Below, one piece after another: positions 7,875-61,600 of a stretch of DNA of 64,000 bases. The DNA is from Nymphaea colorata (lineage: Eukaryota; Streptophyta; Magnoliopsida; Nymphaeales; Nymphaeaceae), in the NCBI RefSeq assembly GCF_008831285.2, contig NC_045138.2, forward strand, positions 21,051,934 to 21,115,933, read 5' to 3'. Positions within the stretch are counted from its first letter, which is position 1. The number at the start of each line of letters is the position of its first letter. Under the pieces are notes generated by a model. The model had not been told where the DNA came from. It saw nothing but the letters and a program-made list of their open reading frames with translations, and ran no database searches. Both the position numbers and the translations under genes were made by a program.

Positions 7875-8285
7875 TAGGGGTCAACAATGAGTCGAACTAC
7901 TCAAGCTCAACTTGTTAAAGCTCGGCTCGTGAACTAGTTCAAGCTGAGTCATTTGCTTAACGAGTCGAGCTCGAGTTCATGAGTCTGACTCGTTCAAATA
8001 ATTGAGTTGAGTTCGAGCTCAACACATAACTGTCGAGTCGAGTTCGAGCCTTAATTGAGTTTGTCGAGATTTAAACAAGTCGATGTATTCAAACGAGTTT
8101 ACAAGTTTGTCGAGCCTTCATCGAGCTCAAGGTCGAGCTCAACATGTAATGATGAATATCAATTCTATTCAAATGAGTTTGTCGAGCCTTAATCGGGCCG
8201 AGCTCGAGCTCAACATGTAATTGCTGAGTTGAGCTGAGTTCGAGTTGACTGCACTCGGGCTCGACTCAACTCATTTTCACCCCTA
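7875..8285. mobile_element. hAT-type MITE (TAGGGGT ends, exact 8-bp target duplication)
   Basis: A 411-bp non-coding element built of GAGTCGAGCTCGAG-type motifs. The ends are TAGGGGTCAACAATGAGT and, on the other strand, TAGGGGTGAAAATGAGTT. It is flanked by an exact 8-bp direct repeat CGTGGAAG (7867-7874 and 8286-8293), the hallmark of hAT transposition. No transposase is present, so an autonomous relative elsewhere must have moved it. Confidence 0.88.
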
Positions 8286-12683: not shown

Positions 12684-13081
12684 TAGGGATGTGCAATGGG
12701 TCAAGCTAACTCGGGCTCATCTTGAAGTCACCCGTGTAAGCTCGCCTTGAGCTTTACTTGTTTAACGAGTCAAGCTCGAGCTTGGGTTAAAACTCAAGTT
12801 ATAAACAAGTCAAGTTTGAATTATATCAGATTGACTTGTTTAAAGTGGATTGGGCTTGTGTTTTCTCCATTTTGTTAGGGGTAAGTCAGTAATTTTTGAT
12901 TAATTTTAATACCATTTTGTATTTTTTATTTTCATTTAAAGAAATATGAATCAAGTGGCATGAGCTTAAATGAGTCAAACTCGAGCTCAAACTGGGTTAA
13001 CTGAGTCAAACTCGAGCTCGACTCATAAGCTCAACTTGAACACATTGAGATCGAGCCGAGCTCAATTATCATACATCCCTA
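12684..13081. mobile_element. hAT-type MITE (TAGGGATGT ends)
   Basis: A 398-bp element with ends TAGGGATGT and ACATCCCTA and a GAGCTCGAG-rich body like the element at 7875. It is flanked by CTTAGAAT (12,676-12,683) and CATAGAAT (13,082-13,089), an 8-bp repeat with one mismatch. The same insertion is present at the equivalent place in duplicate copy B (14,536), so it predates the duplication. Confidence 0.82.
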
Positions 13082-16952: not shown

Positions 16953-19900
16953 CTACAGGAGCCGATCGGTCTGGGCGGGAAGCCGACGGAAGAAGTTGAC
17001 AGGGACAGAGGGGAGCTTGCTCCGGAAGCGCGGGTGGCGCAAGAAATAGAGCCCCGCCAGCACGGCCACCACCTGGAACGGCGTCACGTAGAGGAAGACT
17101 GCCATGCAGAGGCAGAGCACCACGAATATGGTGGTGGCGCGCGGGTCTCGCCAGCTGAGTATCCCCTGCAGGCGCTCCCCCTGAGTGGCCAGGTCCCCCA
17201 CCACCGTCTGCACCCTCCCCGCGACGTTCCTCAGCCGGTCGTACCTCATCCTCACGATGTCCGGCGGCCGGCTCGTCGGGAACGTGTCAAACTCCTCGTC
17301 GAGCTCGTCCGGGTGGGCCCGCTCCGCCTGCGACAGCTTCGTGTCCATGTGTGGGGGTTTCCGCGGCCGGAACCGGTAGTTCCAGAGCCCGATCAGGAAG
17401 AGGTAGAGGAAGACCGTCGGCAGGATCAGCTCCGGGTAGCACACCAGTATGAGGAAGAGGACGTGGACCAGAACGGTGGTCACCGGGTTCGTCCAGTTGC
17501 GGATGTCGTTGAACCACTTGCCGACGGCGAAGACCCCATGAAACAGCGACATTATCCGGTAGAAGTTCGCCTTGCTCCGCCGGAGGCTGAACATGTGCTG
17601 GTCGATGTCCAGCATGAAATCGACCGCCTCCTTGCGCAGCGGTGGCTCCGCCCGGCCAAGGCGCGCCGCAACGATCTGGATGGCATGGTGGCGGAGGAGA
17701 TCCAGATGCATGACCGAGATGGGGTTGACGTAGTGCATCTTGGGCAGCAGCGGCTGGCTGTACATGTGCATCATGTTGATGAAGGACGAGCAGGTAAAGC
17801 GGACGGCAAGGTGGAGTTCGCCGGTCTTCTTGAGGCCGGAGGGGTGCAGAACAAGAAGAGGGTAGTAATGGGTGTAGACGCGGTCAGTCTCCAGCGTCGA
17901 CAGCCGGATGCGGACCTTGCCGATGCGCTGGTCCTTGGCGTCCTTGGCGTCGCCGAGCTGGGAGTTGTCGAAGACGCAGATGGTGATGACGGTGCAGGGG
18001 TCGTAGACCTCCCAGGTGTACTGCTCGTTCCAACTGGGGCAGAGGGAGTCGATGAGCGTCCGCGTCCGAACCCACTTCTGGCCGTACTTGGCGACGCAGT
18101 AGGCGTCGATGCTGCCGCGGCCGTTCTTCGTCTTCAACGGCAGGAGGTTCCGGGCGCCGAGGATCCCCACCTCCAGCACGCCGATGCTCTGCTTCCACAG
18201 CTGCCTAGCCGTCGGCCGGAGGTCACTGCTGTAGTATGTCGACTCATCCAGCACGTGATACCCGCCGTCGAGGCACACTCGGAGGTGGATCCGGCTCGCG
18301 AACTTCACCTCCTTCTTCTTCTCGCCGTTGGTTCCCTCCGGCGTCGCCACGGACGGTTTCTCGAGGTTGTACCACTTGGCGTCTACCATCTTGTTGTCGT
18401 TCCGGCGAGGCACCATGGACAGCGGCAGGATCAGGCGGCCGATGGTCTCCTCCTTGTTACCCCCAATCCTGTCGTCCACGGAGATGACGAGGTGCTCCTC
18501 AAAGGGGTCCGCCGCCACGAAGAGGAGCTCCTCGTTCCAGAGCGGATTCACGGTGCGCATCTGGGACGGGGAGGGCCTAGTCCGCCGCAGCTGTTGGCCC
18601 AGTTGGACCTTCACCCAGGCGTCGGGCATCCGCCCCTTCTCGCCGCCGGGCACCAGGTCCTGCGCCTCGATCACGCATACCCGGACGTAGCAGAGCTTGG
18701 GGGAGAAGTAGACCTTCGATTTGGTGTGGTGGATGGCGCCCGGAGGAACTGAGACCGCGTCGGAATGCCAGGCCTCCGGGTAGGCCTCGTCGGCCTGCGT
18801 CCCCCTCCAGACGGCCAACATGATCTCCCCTTTCACCTTGGACTCCCCCTTCTTGTCTTCCAACCGGTACCATTGCGGTGCCAGGGGGCTGTCCGGCGGC
18901 ACCCTCACCGGGATCTCGCACAGGTCGAAGACCACCTTGCCGACGAAGTCGTCCTTCACCAAGTCCTTGTCCTTCACCGTGATTTCGAGCACGCTCGCCT
19001 GCAGCCGCTCCTTGGAGAAGGCGAACACCTGGTTCCACACCGGGTTCAGGGTCTTCTCGTGGTGCTTCGTGGTACCCTTGTAGTTGCCGAGCTTCACCTC
19101 CACGTAGGGGTCGCAGCTCCCACTGACGTCCATGGCGGGCAGGTCCTTCGCCTTCACCACGCTCACGTACAGGAACTCCAGCTGCTCCACCAGGTCGTAG
19201 GTGCTCGCCGTCTTGTCCCGCCGGTTGTAGTACCCGACCACCCCACCCAGCGGCGGCGACGTCTCCACCAGACCGAACTCCGCCTCCTTGCGCTGCAACT
19301 GGTGGAGGGAAGCCGGGTGGGGAGCCACCACGATGGGCGGGGGTTGTGCCGGAGGGTGGGCGTGCATCGAAAAGATCTGCTCGACGCGGGCCTGCTCCGG
19401 CTTCTTGTGCTCCACATGGGGCTTCCCCTTGCTCGATGTCTGCTTGTGGACTTCAGCGGCGGCCTTGGCTTCGGCCGCCGGCGGCGGGAGGTCGGAAAAC
19501 TCCATGGCCTTCTCCTTATCCTTCTTCTTCTTCTTCTCCGCCTTCTGCTCCAGTTCCTCCGGCGCAGCGGCCGGAGGAACGGGAGCAGCAGGAGGAGGCT
19601 TGGGCACCGCGGCAGAACCTTCGTCGATGTACAAGTTGAGGGCGATTTCGCCCCGAATGTGGGAGAAAAGGCCGCGCTTGTCGAGGGGGAACCGCTGCGG
19701 GGCGGCGTCGGCGGCGCGAGGAACGGAGGAACCCGAGATCTTGACGCGGCCTAGGAAGTTCTTGTGGTGGCCGGGGGCACCGGACCTGCGATCATTGTAG
19801 ACATCGACGACGATTGTCTGGCTTTGGAGGGCGTCGGGGTCGGTGACGTTAAACTCCAGTCTTTCGTTCCACACGGGGTTGAGGTCCCTCTCCCTGGTCG

Positions 19901-20012
19901 CCGTCCTCATCCGCTGCCCGTCGAAATCCACCTCCACGAAGGGGCTGGCCGACCCTTGCCCATCCTTCGGCATCAGGTCACTGGCATCCAGTATCTCCGC
20001 CACCAGCTTCAT
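16953..20012 (-). CDS. Multiple C2 and transmembrane region protein (MCTP/FTIP family)
   Basis: An intronless ORF of 1,019 residues. ATG at 20,012 (MKLVAEILDASDLMPKDGQG) is chosen because the 13 codons in frame upstream start from TTG and lack homology, whereas family members begin at this C2 strand. Order: C2A (about 1-110), a Pro- and Lys-rich linker (about 125-245, with KKKKKDKEK), C2B from the family hallmark STYDLVEQLEFLYVSVVKAK (about 270-385), C2C (about 438-545), C2D (about 610-720), and a C-terminal PRT_C region with hydrophobic membrane stretches near 848-872 and 960-990. Conserved Asp residues of the calcium loops (DPYVEVKLG) are present in C2B. MCTPs tether endoplasmic reticulum to plasma membrane at plasmodesmata, and relatives move florigen or act in signalling. 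The closest match from memory is Arabidopsis MCTP6-type. Lack of introns and high GC are normal for this family. Confidence 0.96.
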   Translation of the reverse strand: MKLVAEILDASDLMPKDGQGSASPFVEVDFDGQRMRTATRERDLNPVWNERLEFNVTDPDALQSQTIVVDVYNDRRSGAPGHHKNFLGRVKISGSSVPRAADAAPQRFPLDKRGLFSHIRGEIALNLYIDEGSAAVPKPPPAAPVPPAAAPEELEQKAEKKKKKDKEKAMEFSDLPPPAAEAKAAAEVHKQTSSKGKPHVEHKKPEQARVEQIFSMHAHPPAQPPPIVVAPHPASLHQLQRKEAEFGLVETSPPLGGVVGYYNRRDKTASTYDLVEQLEFLYVSVVKAKDLPAMDVSGSCDPYVEVKLGNYKGTTKHHEKTLNPVWNQVFAFSKERLQASVLEITVKDKDLVKDDFVGKVVFDLCEIPVRVPPDSPLAPQWYRLEDKKGESKVKGEIMLAVWRGTQADEAYPEAWHSDAVSVPPGAIHHTKSKVYFSPKLCYVRVCVIEAQDLVPGGEKGRMPDAWVKVQLGQQLRRTRPSPSQMRTVNPLWNEELLFVAADPFEEHLVISVDDRIGGNKEETIGRLILPLSMVPRRNDNKMVDAKWYNLEKPSVATPEGTNGEKKKEVKFASRIHLRVCLDGGYHVLDESTYYSSDLRPTARQLWKQSIGVLEVGILGARNLLPLKTKNGRGSIDAYCVAKYGQKWVRTRTLIDSLCPSWNEQYTWEVYDPCTVITICVFDNSQLGDAKDAKDQRIGKVRIRLSTLETDRVYTHYYPLLVLHPSGLKKTGELHLAVRFTCSSFINMMHMYSQPLLPKMHYVNPISVMHLDLLRHHAIQIVAARLGRAEPPLRKEAVDFMLDIDQHMFSLRRSKANFYRIMSLFHGVFAVGKWFNDIRNWTNPVTTVLVHVLFLILVCYPELILPTVFLYLFLIGLWNYRFRPRKPPHMDTKLSQAERAHPDELDEEFDTFPTSRPPDIVRMRYDRLRNVAGRVQTVVGDLATQGERLQGILSWRDPRATTIFVVLCLCMAVFLYVTPFQVVAVLAGLYFLRHPRFRSKLPSVPVNFFRRLPAQTDRLL

Positions 20013-20335
20013 TTTTGCTTCCTCCCCAACTCCCCCCACTGATCTTCGCAACTCCCAACCTCAAAAGTAGTCGAAACAACAGAACCCCAAAATAACTCTT
20101 CTTCTTCTTCCACTGGTCTTTCCAACTCCCAACCTCGAGTATAAGAAACAAAAGAACCCCAAAATGACACTTCTTTCTTCTTCTTCTTCTTCTTCTGGTT
20201 TCTAGCAGAGAAAGGGAGGAGAGAGGGTGAGGAAGGGAAGGAGAGAGAGAGATCAGTCTGGTTTTATGTACTCTGCGCTTCTTTTTCCCCTTTTCTTCTT
20301 TTCACTTTTGGGATATTTGGGGTATCAGTATCATG
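20013..20335 (-). promoter_or_regulatory. MCTP leader and probable core promoter
   Basis: Read on the minus strand, the 200 bases before the ATG are (GAA)n-rich, typical of a plant 5' UTR. Further upstream lies GAGTACATAAAACC (near 20,265), a TATA-like box followed by CT-rich sequence. The transcription start is not known; this is an inference from composition. Confidence 0.4.
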
Positions 20336-51700: not shown

Positions 51701-53478
51701 GTCCAATGCTCGAAACTCGAGCTCGGGCTTGGGCTTGATGCCTAAACCTGAGCTTGGGCCCGACCTGGTTACAATAAAAAATATTTTTAAAATATCAAAT
51801 AAAATTTTTAAATATAAAATACATAATATATATTATTAATAAAATAAAAATAATCTTTAAATTTATGGGGCCCAGTCGGCCCTAACTCTAGGATTAATGC
51901 TACTTTGATCAATTCAATTGCTATATAGTTGTAGTGTATTAGATCAGCTGCTTGCTGTGTTGTGATGTAAATGGTTCATATTGGTGTGTTATCACCACAA
52001 ATTGTTTAAGCTTAAATGTGATTGCAGTAATTTCAATTATTTTTACAGTAATTCAATTATGATTTCAGTCCGACCTTATTTAGCACCGCGCGTGCGCATG
52101 CAAACCTCAATTTTGCTTTTAGTCCAAACTTTGTGTCGAAATTTTTTTAAAAATATTTTTTTAAATCCATAACACTCATCTAACCCTTGATCTGAGCCTT
52201 AGGCATCAATTGGAACACGTTCTCGACCAAGTGAACCCAATCCAGGTCTACAACGTGTCCAAAACCTTTCAAATTAAAACTGAAGCCATTTAACAAAAGG
52301 AAAACATTTTACCCTTTAAAAAATATGCATTTAAAAAAATAAAAATTAAATTCTTTTAAGTGGACCCAAGGGGGCCAAGGCGCCCGAAACCCCCTTCATG
52401 GCCCAAAAATGAGCCAATAGAGGGGAGATGTGCCCTCGCCATGCATCTGGCTGAGCAGTGCATGGCTCTCTGGCCTAGGGGCGCGGACGCCCTAGTGCTA
52501 TCGTAATATGTGTTGCTTCACATGATCGAGAAAACACTTGGAATTCACATGAAAATCTTATTACATTAAAAAAAATAATAATTTTTGAGTTTTGACTCCA
52601 AAATTTCATATACATACCCTTAAAATATTCTCTCATGGGTATAAGCTAACCCTTGGAAAACTTCTAGAGTTCTTTTATTTGAGATTTTGTAAGTTCTTCT
52701 CTTACTTCTCCCGAATTCTCTTCTTCTTCGAGAGCAAGTTTTTTTTTTCAACTTATTCGAAGCAGATTGAAACCTTTTGGAGAGATATCCTCATCACTTT
52801 GGGCGCTCACTTGGAGCACATTGGAATCATTTTCTAACTGGTTTATTTAGAAGTATGTAGTCAAATACCTCAATCATCTTTTATTTTCTTTCTCCCTTCT
52901 TCATCTCTCCATGGCAATATAAGGTAGTTCTAGAATCTCCTCTATGGAATCAAGAGCTGTTCTTAAGTGCACCAGAAGCATGATCAAAGTGAAATAAAAC
53001 TTCTTTTTTCTTTCTAAGATTGATATGCATTCATTTCTTTGCTTATTAAATGTGTGCATTATTTATCCTTGAAATAATGTCTATGCATAGTTGATTGATT
53101 TAACAATTAATATGTGCATAATCAGTAACAACAAATGTTTAAGTTGGGATTTCTTTGTTATTATGTTGATTTTAAAGGTTTTATCCAACCCGGAAAAACC
53201 CTTAGGAATGCATACATGTTAAAATGCATCTTCATGATATTCTTACATTTAACATTTCTCTTAATCACCTGATTAAAGATCCCAGTATAGTTTTGTTACA
53301 TTATTAACTTTTTATTTTATGTATGTTTGTTTTTCTCCCATAGTGGGAGAAATAAGTTCTTTTGATAGATGAAATAATTATTTTTTTTCTAAAGTCCAAA
53401 TGCTTCAAATTATCTATTGATTTTAACTTTTTACACACACATATGTGCATGAACCCTCTCTCTCACTCACTCTTTTGA
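48781..53478. other. Intergenic
   Basis: No gene is supported. The stretch holds a (AT)n at 48,957-48,979, dispersed repeat text at 49,160-49,350, (CA)/(TA) tracts at 50,890-50,990, a 36-bp tandem duplication at 51,384-51,441 (GTCATGAGAGATCGAAAC), and a GC-ended repeat at 51,655-51,895 like that at 4569. Confidence 0.5.
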
Positions 53479-54333
53479 TAAGGCTGGGCGTCGGGCCGGG
53501 CCGGGCCGGGTTTGGGCCGGGAAAATCTCGGCCCGGGCCCAACAGGCCGGCCCAGCAGCAGGCCCGATCGGCCTGACTACCTCCCCGCTTCCCCCCTTCC
53601 CGTCTCCCTCCCCCTTCCCCTTCCCCTTCCCGTCTCCCTCCCCCGTCCCCTTCCCCCCTTCTGGTCTCCCTCCCCCTTCCCGTTCCCTCCTTCCCGTCTA
53701 CCTCCTTCCCGTCTCCCTCCCGCCAGTACGTACTCCATGAGCGCCGCCGCCTCTATCTGACCAGGGTGGTGCTTCAGCCGGTGCGTCAGCGGGTCGGCGA
53801 ACTCCGGCTTCCCCTGATCACCTCGCAGAACATGGCGGACAGCAGCTCCGCCAGCACCGCTACCACGTTCGCGTCGTAGCACACCAGGCACGCCATCGCC
53901 GCCCCTATGGACGTGCCACTGACGATGGCCAACCCTTCCTTGGGCTGCAGCTCGAACCTCTCCTCCACTGGGTCACCGGATGCCGTGACAATCGCGACGA
54001 AGCCGGGCTGGGAGATGGGAGGGGGAGGCCGGAGGGAAGGGGAAGTCCGGCGGTGGCTCCTGCGCCCCATCTCCCTCTTTCTCCTCCTCTCCGCTCCCTG
54101 CTGAAGTCCGGCGGTGGCTCCTATGCTCCGAGAGGGGGAGTCAGGCCATCGGGCATTGGCACGCCAAACGAGCCGAGCTGGGCCTCATTTTGGGTGGACC
54201 GGCTCGGCTCGACCCGGCTCGGCCCGGCAATATTACGGGCCGGGCTCGGGCCCGGGCTTCAGGCCTGACGGGCCGACCCGAGCCGAGGAAAACCTGGCCG
54301 GGCCGGGCCGGCCCGGCCTGATACCCACCCCTA
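53479..54333. mobile_element. hAT-like element carrying a captured PAL fragment
   Basis: An 855-bp, very GC-rich element in AT-rich DNA. Ends: TAAGGCTGGGCGTCGGGCC and, inverted, TAGGGGTGGGTATCAGGCC, followed by CGGGCC-rich subterminal repeats. It is flanked by an exact 8-bp duplication TCTTTTGA (53,471-53,478 and 54,334-54,341), as hAT elements make. Inside are a piece of a phenylalanine ammonia-lyase gene (53,715-53,956), CCCTTCC-type low-complexity DNA (53,580-53,715), and a short duplicated GAAGTCCGGCGGTGGCTCCT (54,040 and 54,104). No transposase. It is a non-autonomous 'Pack-type' element. Confidence 0.85.
53715..53956 (-). pseudogene. Phenylalanine ammonia-lyase (PAL) gene fragment
   Basis: On the minus strand the frame reads [20 protein letters not shown], then [21 protein letters not shown], then shifts by one missing base near 53,817 and continues [20 protein letters not shown] and [10 protein letters not shown]. 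This is the interior of PAL, which turns phenylalanine into cinnamate. About 80 of some 700 residues are present and no start, so it cannot encode an enzyme. The wording ([17 protein letters not shown]) is closer to the PAL type with a CYDAN motif than to the common VLFEAN type. The donor gene is not in this window. Confidence 0.88.
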
Positions 54334-54373
54334 TCTTTTGATTTACATATCTTCTGTTATAAGTTTTCGCATA

Positions 54374-54896: not shown

Positions 54897-55083
54897 AATC
54901 TTTATAAATATCATTTGAAATTTTTTGAAAATTAGTGTGAGTATTTTTGAAGATTTTTTTTACAATTAATTTAGTGTTTCCTTAGTTCAAGATCCTAAGG
55001 AAACACTAAATTGATTCTAAAAAAAATCTTTAAAAATATTCAGACTAATTTTTAAAAATTTTTAAATGATATTCATAAAGATT
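54897..55083. repeat. Long hairpin: two 89-bp inverted arms with a 9-bp loop
   Basis: Left arm 54,897-54,985 and right arm 54,995-55,083 are inverted copies that differ at about 9 of 88 aligned positions, with loop TTCAAGATC. The arm tips are TTTAGTGTTTCCTTAG. The arms are AT-rich and non-coding. It could be a foldback MITE or the template of a hairpin RNA. Confidence 0.88.
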
Positions 55084-56578
55084 TCTTGATTTGACAGCCT
55101 CTCAAAATGGCTTGACTACTCATCTTGAAAATATTAAGGATAGAGGTTGTTCCGTATCCGTCTAAAACTAAGTATCTAATCTCTAATAAAGATAGTGGCA
55201 CTACCCCTAGCTTTACTTCAAGTATATCATATCTACTAGTTTTATTGCCTTTCATTAACCATGATTGTTAGGTCCATTTAAGTATTAATAATTATCAAAT
55301 AAGTACATATTCATTTTTTTAAACGGCAATTTAAATTTAGTGCTCTCTAACTTTAACTAAAATACCAAGTAAATTGTCTTTTTGTCTATGTAAAAGTGTT
55401 GAACACTTTGAATTTCTTAAGAAAATACCTTATGAGGAATAAAACAACCACATGACAAGACTCTCACCTAGGGATTTGGCCCCAATTAGATTTTATATAA
55501 TTCAAAAAGTTACATGTAAAATTTATAAATTTAGTTTAATTTATATAAAAATTTTTAAAAATTATATTTCGGCCCCTAGGAAGAAAAGTTCGTGGCTCCG
55601 CTCGCCTGGAGTTCATGTTGAAGTAGTTGTGTATAATTTTGAGCTGGAAGAACTGCTATCATGTTATTTTTATCGCAATCCAATGAGCTGTTACTCTCAT
55701 ATCAAAGATTGTGAGAGATTTTTAAGAGCTTACTAGAAAGATTTGGGCAACAGCCAGAAAGTGGATTGAGATTGAACAAAGCGTAATGCACAATTTTATT
55801 TTATTTTACTAATATTTAATTTCTTCAAGCATAAAGGGGACTTTATAATTTAAGACGCTCTTAAGCATTGACTTTTGAGCCTAAAAATACCAACTAAAAA
55901 AGATTTTTAGATTTACTATTTGGTTCTTAATTGTAGAACTCAGGTTGGATGCAGCTATTTAGCCAAATGACGCTATTACGCATGAGGTAAGAGCATGTAC
56001 TGCGAGTATATACCATTTTTTAACGGAGATTTTTATTGAGGGCTTAACTTTTTGTCTACACTTCAGAAAAAGTCCTCAAGTTTCTGATTTTCTTGACAGT
56101 CCTTTATGTTTCACTGATAATTATTAAATAAGTGCTCGCTTTTAGGGCCGCATAAGAGCTGTTTTTCACAGAAAACTCGAGATAAACTTTGACTTGAACT
56201 CGAGTTGAGCTCCATACAATAAGCTCGTGCTCGACTCAATGGTATAATGTCGAGGTTGAACTCGATTCGTTTAACTCATTTAACTCGTTTTTTCTTAAGC
56301 ATGTCGTGTTTCTTTAACTCGTTTCCAGTTTGACTATTTTCTCTTTATAATTCAACATCTATTGTGTAGTGTAGAGAAATCGAGTTTAAGTGAGTCGAGT
56401 TCTTATAACTCGAACTTGACCCGTTTAACATTTCAAGCATACATTGGAACTCGATCTTGAACGAGTAGAGCTCAAGTAGAATTTAGAAGGGTGAATTCGA
56501 GCTCGAGCTGACTCGACTTGCTGTGCAACCTTACTCACTTTGATCATTTTGGTTAAAAAATGTGCAGTGAGAGAGCTA

Positions 56579-58691: not shown

Positions 58692-61600
58692 ATGGATCTG
58701 TCGGAATCGCAGTCGAGTCTGTCGCTGGGGTTCCGGCAGCTGAGCCCGCCGCCTCGGACGCCGATCACAGACGACTCGATATCGCTGCAGCTCGATTCTG
58801 GATTCAGCGACTGCGGAAATGCCCGGCGGATTCCCCTTCAGCTGCTCGACCAGCCCGAGCACACGGAGAGTAGGGCCGACTCCAACCAGGACCGGGACAA
58901 GGAGGAGTTTAGCATCCTCGGGTACACCATGCGCCTGAAGCGCCGGAAGGAGGCGGAGCCGTCTCCCCCTCGTCCGCCGGTTCCAGCGTTCTTGCGGCCG
59001 GATTCGGGGTGCTCGAGCTCCGCGTCGACGAGCAAGCAGGGGATGGTGCAGATGGAGGCGAGGCGGGCAGCTGTGAGGGCGTGGGCTAACCAGCCGCTCT
59101 CGGCTGCCGACGCCGACGTCTGGGAGATCATGGAGAAGGAGAAGGAGCGACAGTTCAGGGGTATTGAGCTAATCGCGTCGGAGAATTTCGTGTGCAGGGG
59201 CGTGCTCGAGGCTCTTGGGAGCCACCTGACCAACAAGTACTCGGAAGGATTGCCTGGGGCGAGATACTACATAGGCAACCAATACATCGATCAGATCGAA
59301 TTGCTTTGCCAGAAGCGGGCGCTGGCAGCTTTTCATCTCGATCCTGAGAAGTGGGGAGTGAACGTGCAACCGTACTCCTGCACCTCGGCTAATTTCGCCG
59401 TTTACACGGGCCTTCTTCTTCCCAAGGATCGGATTATGGGCCTGGATTCACCGTCTGGTGGGCATCTGAGTCATGGCTATTATACGCCGAGTGGGAAGAA
59501 AGTTTCTGGTGCGTCAATCTTCTTCGAGAGCCTGCCGTATAAGGTGAACCTCCAGACGGGATATATCGACTACGAGAAATTGGAAGAGAAGGCGCTTGAC
59601 TTTCGGCCCAAGATATTAATATGTGGTGGAAGCTCATACCCACGAGAATGGGATTATTCACGTTTCCGGCAGATTGCTGATAAATGTGGAGCTGTATTAA
59701 TGTGCGACATGGCACAGATCGGTGGTCTTATAGCTGCCAAGGTATGAAATTATGTTGAAATTCTGGTACAAGCTGTTGATTTCGTTGGTTTTATTGTGTT
59801 TCTGAGCTCAATCCACTATTTCAACCCCAATTTTTGCTGTGCGGAATCAATTTCTAGGTATGAGCCTTGCCTGGTATTTTCTTCTGTACTTCGATAATCC
59901 ATTTCTTTGATTGGTGAAATCTTCATTATAAATTGGGAAGCATGTGGCAACTCCATCTTGTGCGGATGTTTTAGCTATTGACGATGCTTCGTGTATACAG
60001 TCGGTTATCATAATTATACATAAGAAAGTCTGGCGTTTGAACTTTTACATAGATAAACTGCTAGGATTTAGTTTGTGAATTGTGATAGTATTAGGCACTG
60101 ACGTTGGGGTAAACTTGTCCCATTAGCATTCCGAGTCCATCCCACGAAAGAGATGAATTGGAAAAAGGAAAATTGTATTTATCTCTAGTGAAAAACAAAC
60201 AATTATCTATAGATTAATTGCCAAAGGAATGTAGTGCGATCTAGCCATTTAAAATACTGAATCTGAAGCTGTGACTACTATAGCAGTACACGTAGATCTT
60301 GCACTGCTTTCTCATCGGTGTAATCCATAGTATGGAGTTGCACAGTTACAAAATGCCAAACCCTTAGAGCACTTCTGATTTTTCTTATCCTTACTGTACT
60401 AATGGCAATTGAACACATAGCGAGGAAGTTCTTCACCACCGTACATCTTTGTATACCTGAAACTGGATGCAAAAAGTCTGTGGGAAGAGGTCCAACTTTC
60501 TTCACCCATTTTTTGGGTGCAATTACTAAATGCACTGGGGGAAGCAATTTGTGGAGAATCTTAATATCTTATATGCCCCTAAGATCGGATTACCTTGTTT
60601 CTCTGGTGTTGGTCTGCTGGTACTTCTTTCATAGGGGTGAGTTTCCTTCTTCTCTTTCCATTTCTTTTCCAGATCTGCAATTTTTAGGTGTCTATACATC
60701 ATGAAAATTAAAAGAAGGGGATTACATCTCAAACCAACCACTGATAGCATAGCAGGTGAATGTTGAGCATGGTAGGTGAGTGTTGATGTGTCCGGCAAAG
60801 CTATTTGTGATTGATGCTGCTTAGAATAATTTGCCTGATCATGTTTAGATCAACTCTAGTAGCTTTCTGCATAGAAACAGACAAAAGAATCTGTTTTGTA
60901 GGATAAGAATTGAGCACTCCATGCTTTGATTTTGTGGTCTGGTTACAAGTGAAATGGGAACACTTGCTAATGCGACATGTCCTACATCTCTGAGATAATC
61001 AGAATCGGTAGAATTTGTAGGGCACAGGTTACTCAGCAATCTTTCTACGATCCATTTTAATGAGAATCTGTAGGGAGCTTTATTCGCATCTTGCACTTAT
61101 TGTGTTCCATGTGAAAATCCTCACCAGCTCTATTTGCAGACACTCAATATTATTCTCGAATCTCCTCTTGTCATCATATGGTCCCATGGCAAGTTCTTTT
61201 GTCTTCTTGGTGTTCTTGGAACTAGACAAACTTTTGTAAACATCAAATGGTTTAGCTTGTATCAGACATCATTGTTATGATCCATATGATCCTTGCTGTT
61301 AGATCTTTTTTCTTTGTTCAATGTGCATGTGGCTCACAGATGTGCATGCACAAGAAACTGATTTGGTCTAGTTTTTTCTTTTTCAATTGTTTATGATATG
61401 GTTTACTGAAACCTTGGTTGATGTCTGAAGTTCATTGAACTGAATCCTTTATTGGTAGTGTTCTTTTTTCCTTTTTTTTCTTCTTCTTTTTGGCTTGAGT
61501 ATCTTGAGTAAGTCTGATTTTTAGTTCCTCTTTGGTTCTTTTTCCTAAAGTTGCAGCTTATAGTTTCTTGCACTAATTAGCTCACTGGCACACTGCCTAC

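Follow-up and report, generated by a model that had tools for sequence, protein, structure and literature searches.

Investigation of a 64,000-nucleotide stretch of Nymphaea colorata DNA (hereafter the window) revealed a non-autonomous hAT element of 855 bp at positions 53479-54333 on the plus strand, with a piece of a gene for phenylalanine ammonia-lyase (PAL), a lignin-pathway enzyme, inside it. The observation is confirmed as real, and in the best explanation, which we hold with high confidence, this is a Pack-TYPE hAT element with captured PAL DNA. The element and its borders comprise the following features:

53471-53478, no strand: left target-site duplication TCTTTTGA
53479-53509, plus strand: left terminal inverted repeat, GGGCC-rich subterminal sequence included, from BLAST self-pairing
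53580-53721, no strand: pyrimidine-rich CCCTTCCCGTCTCCCTCC-type tract with self-matches inside, with counterparts in sister elements
53719-53966, minus strand: captured piece of PAL exon 1, in antisense orientation relative to the element, aligning to L009:5320-5571 (the PAL gene on C9)
between 53816 and 53817, minus strand: 1-bp deletion breaking the PAL reading frame, from the alignment
53967-53990 (end approximate), minus strand: short PAL remnant, junctions read by eye
54303-54333, minus strand: right terminal inverted repeat, from BLAST, with 569 genomic occurrences of its 20-mer class when up to two mismatches are allowed
54334-54341, no strand: right target-site duplication TCTTTTGA, an 8-mer identical to the left one

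The exact 8-bp target duplication claimed for this element was recovered, TCTTTTGA being identical on both sides of 53479-54333. The element ends in TAAGGCTGGGCGTCGGGCCGGG on the left and, reverse-complemented, in TAGGGGTGGGTATCAGGCCGGG on the right, and these inverted ends are imperfect, the outer 31 bp pairing at only 80.6% (BLAST). The GC content is 0.69 inside the element vs 0.24 in its flanks, and no transposase frame is encoded. The PAL piece, 248 bp on the minus strand, had originally been placed at 53715-53956; PAL sequence is indeed present there, with limits that were 4-10 bp off (53719-53966). A PAL piece running past the element ends had been named as an observation that would speak against capture; instead it stops well inside the element, and the reading of it as part of a wider pseudogene was rejected because the piece ends there. 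The short remnant at 53967-53990 is donor-exon sequence from about 110 bp further upstream, joined via an internal deletion.

The element looks intergenic, since no frame of at least 170 aa (ATG/GTG/TTG start rule) overlaps it; the neighbouring long frames belong to a C2-domain/PRT_C gene (16953-20051) and a gene for serine hydroxymethyltransferase whose start is near 58692. The window had also been reported to hold other hAT-like MITEs, which stands for 7875-8285, a 411-bp hAT-like MITE with TAGGGGT ends and an exact 8-bp duplication (CGTGGAAG), and only in part for the candidates at 12684-13081 and 56143-56533, whose flanking 8-mers differ at one base; the 14 shifted controls of this pairing gave 0 or 1 pair each. 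A hairpin-like 89-bp inverted repeat, its arms 90% complementary with 9 bases between them, is present at 54897-55083.

Regarding distribution in the genome, a search with the window element gave at least 96 matches from the 40 candidates that were scored out of 314. The terminal repeats recur as the original prediction had supposed, the right-end 20-mer (CGGCCCGATACCCACCCCTA) being found at 285 forward and 284 reverse places (569 at up to two mismatches) and the reversed-pattern control at none. Of 39 places fetched, three (L009, L014 and L015) are PAL genes and 36 are family loci, giving 37 loci with the window. The ends mostly start TA[A/G]GG; the inverted repeats start [T/C]A[A/G]GG and are short, imperfect in the window copy and worn in L044. 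When left and right ends were paired by script and the adjacent 8-mers compared, exact 8-bp duplications were found at matched ends in 19 of the 37 loci and duplications with at most one mismatch in 25 of 37, these including L030, whose ends are poor and whose pairing is doubtful. Shifted controls, with the right 8-mer moved by 2-59 bases, gave 0/37 in each of 20, so that the duplications exceed chance. By eye, a further exact duplication was recognized in L042, whose right end has an indel, L043 and L044 have near-duplications only, with an indel or end loss, and no matching target duplication was seen in L045 and L046.

With the window copy included, 29 elements could be delimited, while eight of the 37 loci (L012, L018, L022, L024, L029, L030, L033 and L040) are without set limits; in the PAL-bearing L012 the left end was found and the right end was not. 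Larger elements considered in L018, L022 and L033 were rejected because the surroundings are duplicated, and none of the printed frames above 150 aa in these three loci is transposase-like by eye. The 400-bp flanks of the delimited copies are unrelated to one another, with the exception of L036-L038 and of L021 and L032, which match in part (75%). The elements at L036-L038 (715, 1050 and 875 bp, no PAL) have the same flanking 8-mer and flanks 86-98% alike, and for these reasons represent one insertion duplicated with its surroundings.

Insertion is shown directly for the sister element L042 by uninterrupted paralogous sites. This copy sits in repeated sequence, and a query made of its joined flanks and a single copy of the 8-mer has matches at 36 places. 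At 34 places elsewhere the match is a single unbroken stretch, 71-90% identical, and at the site of L042 itself it falls into two halves that have 8 query bases in common and are separated by 892 bp, which is the element's length.

Regarding the origin of the PAL piece, a search with PF00221 gave 20 rows in the genome, six of which represent five open PAL genes (C9, C10, C12, C4 and C14) and nine of which are fragments at family loci, including the window; the others are two on C136 (a stop-bearing copy), two on C559 and a weak one on C3. The PAL-family rows at C136:8817-10231 and C559:23201-23988 have stop codons and lie away from the fetched family loci. In BLAST, L013 and L019 were also found to keep smaller PAL remnants, bringing the loci with PAL-derived DNA to 11, window included. 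In the window copy itself, PF00221 was detected on the main PAL frame (58 aa, E=2e-11), and the remaining 31-aa frame scored 18.8 (E=7e-4), below the family cut-off of 27.3. The donor gene was sought, as originally proposed, and a source-like, best-matching PAL gene is present on C9 (92%). The window piece is 92.5% identical to it over 252 BLAST columns, or 94.0% over 248 gap-free columns, and the C10 and C12 genes each match at 78% (BLAST); this DNA ranking covers C9, C10 and C12, the C4 and C14 genes lying outside the scored matches. The C9 gene consists of two stop-free exon-like pieces, while each of the other four open PAL genes is a single frame, 726-816 aa long. Ten sites separate the C9 gene from at least 80% of the copies, and eight of these fall on the third base of a codon, as constraint on the gene side would lead one to expect. 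Since the gene differs from most copies at these ten sites, the true donor may have been a close, lost paralogue of the C9 gene.

The copies may alternatively have a function of their own, as a chimeric protein or as a source of small RNAs damping the C9 PAL gene, which we consider unlikely. Minus-strand frames of 254-305 aa span the element in L042, L043 and L044 and have PAL in frame, as a chimeric protein would need; however, the window copy is frameshifted and L042 is open over 296 codons on both strands, which indicates that the openness of these frames follows from GC-rich, stop-poor sequence. The private changes among copies are not mainly at third positions, their distribution over codon positions 1/2/3 being 22/8/18 with second positions changing least, so that the PAL copies drift without a third-position bias. 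A coding role as the main reading of the PAL piece was rejected on these two grounds, the L042 frames on both strands and the distribution of private changes.

Regarding small RNAs, the window element shares 40 exact 21-mers with the C9 PAL gene, one with the C10 and none with the C12 gene, and 28, 0 and 0 exact 24-mers, respectively, among these three genes compared; given the 40 shared 21-mers, small-RNA action on C9 PAL would be possible. Against this stands the pattern of decay, in which, on recounting under a looser column filter, 29 of 48 private changes are C-to-T or G-to-A and 28 of these 29 lie in CG (17) or CHG (11) context, with one in CHH, so that there is no sign of strong CHH methylation or of CHH-type small-RNA targeting. 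With 371 CG, 299 CHG and 455 CHH context cells available, the skew has a binomial p of 6e-6, or 1e-5 when each column is counted once (27/28), both values being rough because context was read from the donor and the copies are related. Decay of this kind fits CG and CHG methylation of the copies, and we infer that the copies would be silenced by methylation.

The structure of the sister elements suggests that the PAL-bearing copies probably go back to one capture and were then amplified, with internal deletions along the way. The longest PAL piece is that of L047 on C8, which covers L009:5193-5687 (about 500 bp), and L047 is also the longest delimited copy, in which PAL is joined with pectinesterase-like DNA and a third stretch. 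At its upstream edge, the PAL piece has one and the same junction in nine of the ten elements examined (L046 being the exception), and the junction between PAL and the pectinesterase-like DNA is common to L047 and L019. At this latter junction L019 has seven donor bases, GTCAGTC, from beyond the exon end, which was inferred from a CAG/GT site and Pfam limits, and L047 has six of the seven; the stretch is short and is absent from the window copy. Together, the common upstream junction and the L047/L019 junction with donor intron bases argue for a single capture, probably of genomic DNA. A further inner deletion is common to the window copy, L013, L042, L043, L044 and L045 by eye. Sequence comparison thus supports a capture that would have taken place in an ancestor of the window copy and the ten other PAL-bearing loci, and not at the window site. 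A tree of the PAL parts was set aside, these being too short for branch order.

The same data bear on whether a processed or segmental PAL pseudogene could have come to lie between repeat ends by chance. The PAL piece is short and frameshifted, as a pseudogene might be, but nine PAL fragments lie at family loci, eight of them within delimited elements with two ends (only the left end in L012), inner junctions recur among them, and intron bases are preserved at the edge of PAL in L047 and L019. The 400-bp flanks, moreover, are unrelated between delimited copies apart from the sets named above (L036-L038, which have no PAL, and the partial L021/L032 match), and PAL fragments were seen to move only with the ends, which makes this explanation highly improbable.

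Regarding other cargo, the stretch beside PAL has a pectinesterase motif in both L047 (E=9e-4) and L019 (E=2e-5), in both cases below the Pfam cut-off. The best DNA match of this stretch of L047 is at C5:26094873 (84%), and its many matches are clustered on C5, in what are taken to be pectinesterase genes; the rest of the inner DNA of L047 matches best at C1:2609569 (77%). A Pfam scan of 57 frame translations from ten sister elements (three frames only for L013) detected three families, DUF641, pectinesterase and TrAA12, in one frame each. Pectinesterase was detected in L028 (E=2.7e-12), and L010 has DUF641 (E=2.4e-27) and a TrAA12 match below the cut-off (E=4.2e-6). At 2259-3390 of L010 (G000:C4:1453000-1458700) the DUF641 and TrAA12-like pieces run in opposite directions. 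An apparent pectinesterase piece was also seen by eye in L024 (G000:C8:6625000-6630500), where a long frame crosses from the flanking DNA into the element.

The hAT dimerisation domain PF05699 is common in the genome (at least 150 matches, with 150 of 1113 candidates scored). At least six of these domain matches lie within 2 kb of a same-strand right end, by eye, when the 150 are compared with 100 listed ends of the 569; about 0.037 would be expected by chance if 50 of the 100 right ends were placed at random per strand. One of them, the match at C1:22741214 (L049; C1, about 22.74 Mb), lies between ends that are 5716 bp apart, TAGGCCTGGGCGTCGGGCC on the left, where two of the first 12 bases differ, and GATACCCACCCCTA on the right, where the right-end 20-mer is exact. 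The flanking 8-mers (GCAGAGAG vs TCAGAGAG) form a duplication of seven in eight. The frame of L049 (614 aa, stop-to-stop) contains PF05699 (E=6.6e-28) and PF14372 (E=1.5e-19) and its C-terminal part matches Hermes transposase structures in sequence, while a BED finger was not found in this frame. L049 is alike to the window copy in end sequence (91% to the last 35 bp) and not in the interior, and its ends align to sister L023 at 75% and 72% over 165 and 198 columns. L048 on C2 is 5372 bp long and has a 657-aa frame and an exact duplication, its ends being more distant than those of L049. Among the two transposase loci fetched, L048 and L049, an autonomous parent with identical ends and interior was not found; an element of the L049 type is the likely, putative source of transposase for the family.

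The assignment of the element to hAT is thus supported, at the level of sequence, by the length of the duplication, the motif of the ends and a relative that bears a transposase between closely similar ends. Target duplications of Mutator-like elements are about 9 bp, and Helitrons are not known to make any. These two groups and CACTA are the usual carriers of genes in the accessible part of one report (PMC3260210). That the element belongs to one of the three is very improbable, since here the duplications are 8 bp (5 nt in CACTA according to the accessible part of PMC8903248), the ends mostly start TA[A/G]GG and Pfam assigns to hAT those relatives that bear a transposase between closely similar ends.

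Under the preferred explanation, a Pack-TYPE hAT element with captured PAL DNA, the ancestor would have acquired about 500 bp of genomic PAL DNA, comprising the end of exon 1 and the first intron bases, which adjoined pectinesterase-like DNA and a third stretch. This composite could then have been copied to new places by the trans-acting transposase of longer hAT relatives such as the one near 22.74 Mb on C1, and the window copy was presumably moved by such an L049-type transposase. The descendants would have lost differing inner parts, with the middle of the PAL piece retained in the window copy. Template switching during patchwork repair that follows excision may have brought about the capture itself; for Pack-TYPE elements, the accessible part of PMC8903248 also proposes that neighbouring insertions are mobilised jointly. 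Should the sequences matched best on C9, C5 and C1 be the real origins of the three stretches of L047, patchwork repair fits better than joint mobilisation, since they lie on three chromosomes, and a serial fusion of elements is a possible alternative origin of the composite. A broader reading, in which the hAT family, with its several hundred ends, would repeatedly patch unlinked host genes (PAL, pectinesterase, DUF641 and a TrAA12-like gene) and spread them, with small RNAs from the PAL copies having their main effect on the C9 PAL gene with its intron, is improbable. The system also offers a specific candidate, one that can be checked, for a conflict of transposon silencing with a single PAL gene.

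Regarding classification, the element shows the traits of Pack-TYPE (Pack-hAT) elements, being non-autonomous with inverted ends and a target duplication, and having cargo from a host coding gene still present elsewhere (C9 PAL); the hAT trait is represented by the transposase domains of L049 between closely similar, not identical, ends. Assignment as a hAT-type MITE was rejected: the ends are of high copy (569), but the interiors vary widely among the 29 delimited copies. Similarly, a Pack-MULE is contradicted by the 8-bp duplications and hAT-like ends. The original prediction that capture of a lignin-pathway gene piece by hAT elements is less often described is fair, yet the kind is already in print, in the accessible parts of three reports (PMC2528002, PMC3260210, PMC8903248); PAL cargo in a hAT element was not found described in a literature search, most subscription papers being outside its scope.

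According to the accessible text of PMC8903248, Pack-hAT elements are reported in maize and rice, and the present family resembles them as non-autonomous hAT elements with 8-nt duplications, coding DNA and clusters of related copies. Composites from two elements also appear there, with hAT examples mentioned, whereas the composite described here, which joins PAL to pectinesterase-like DNA and one more stretch in a 408-Mb genome, differs from the Pack-hAT elements that this text covers in Arabidopsis, rice and maize. Two Ds2 and nine Ds-l4 elements of maize with gene pieces, called rare in hAT, are described in the accessible text of PMC3260210, where repair-based capture was suggested earlier; like the elements of the present family, they (Ds-l4 about 1 kb) are hAT elements with filler DNA that is partly genic, introns included. 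Unlike what that text describes for Ds2 and Ds-l4, amplification of one PAL capture has here left PAL-derived DNA at 11 loci, and the same genome contains both a source-like PAL gene and a transposase relative whose ends are closely similar. Grapevine Hatvine-6 is likewise a hAT family with a variable interior that often matches host exons and introns, but its members, in the accessible part of PMC2528002, share transposase coding sequence, while the 855-bp window element is without a transposase frame. Thus, the kind is known, and the family is a clear, well-resolved example of a known phenomenon and no new kind of element. It is an unusually complete case in one genome, with a source-like gene, a composite intermediate, capture junctions, descendants, empty sites and a transposase relative, and for this reason it lends itself to tests of how gene pieces are taken up by excisive hAT elements.
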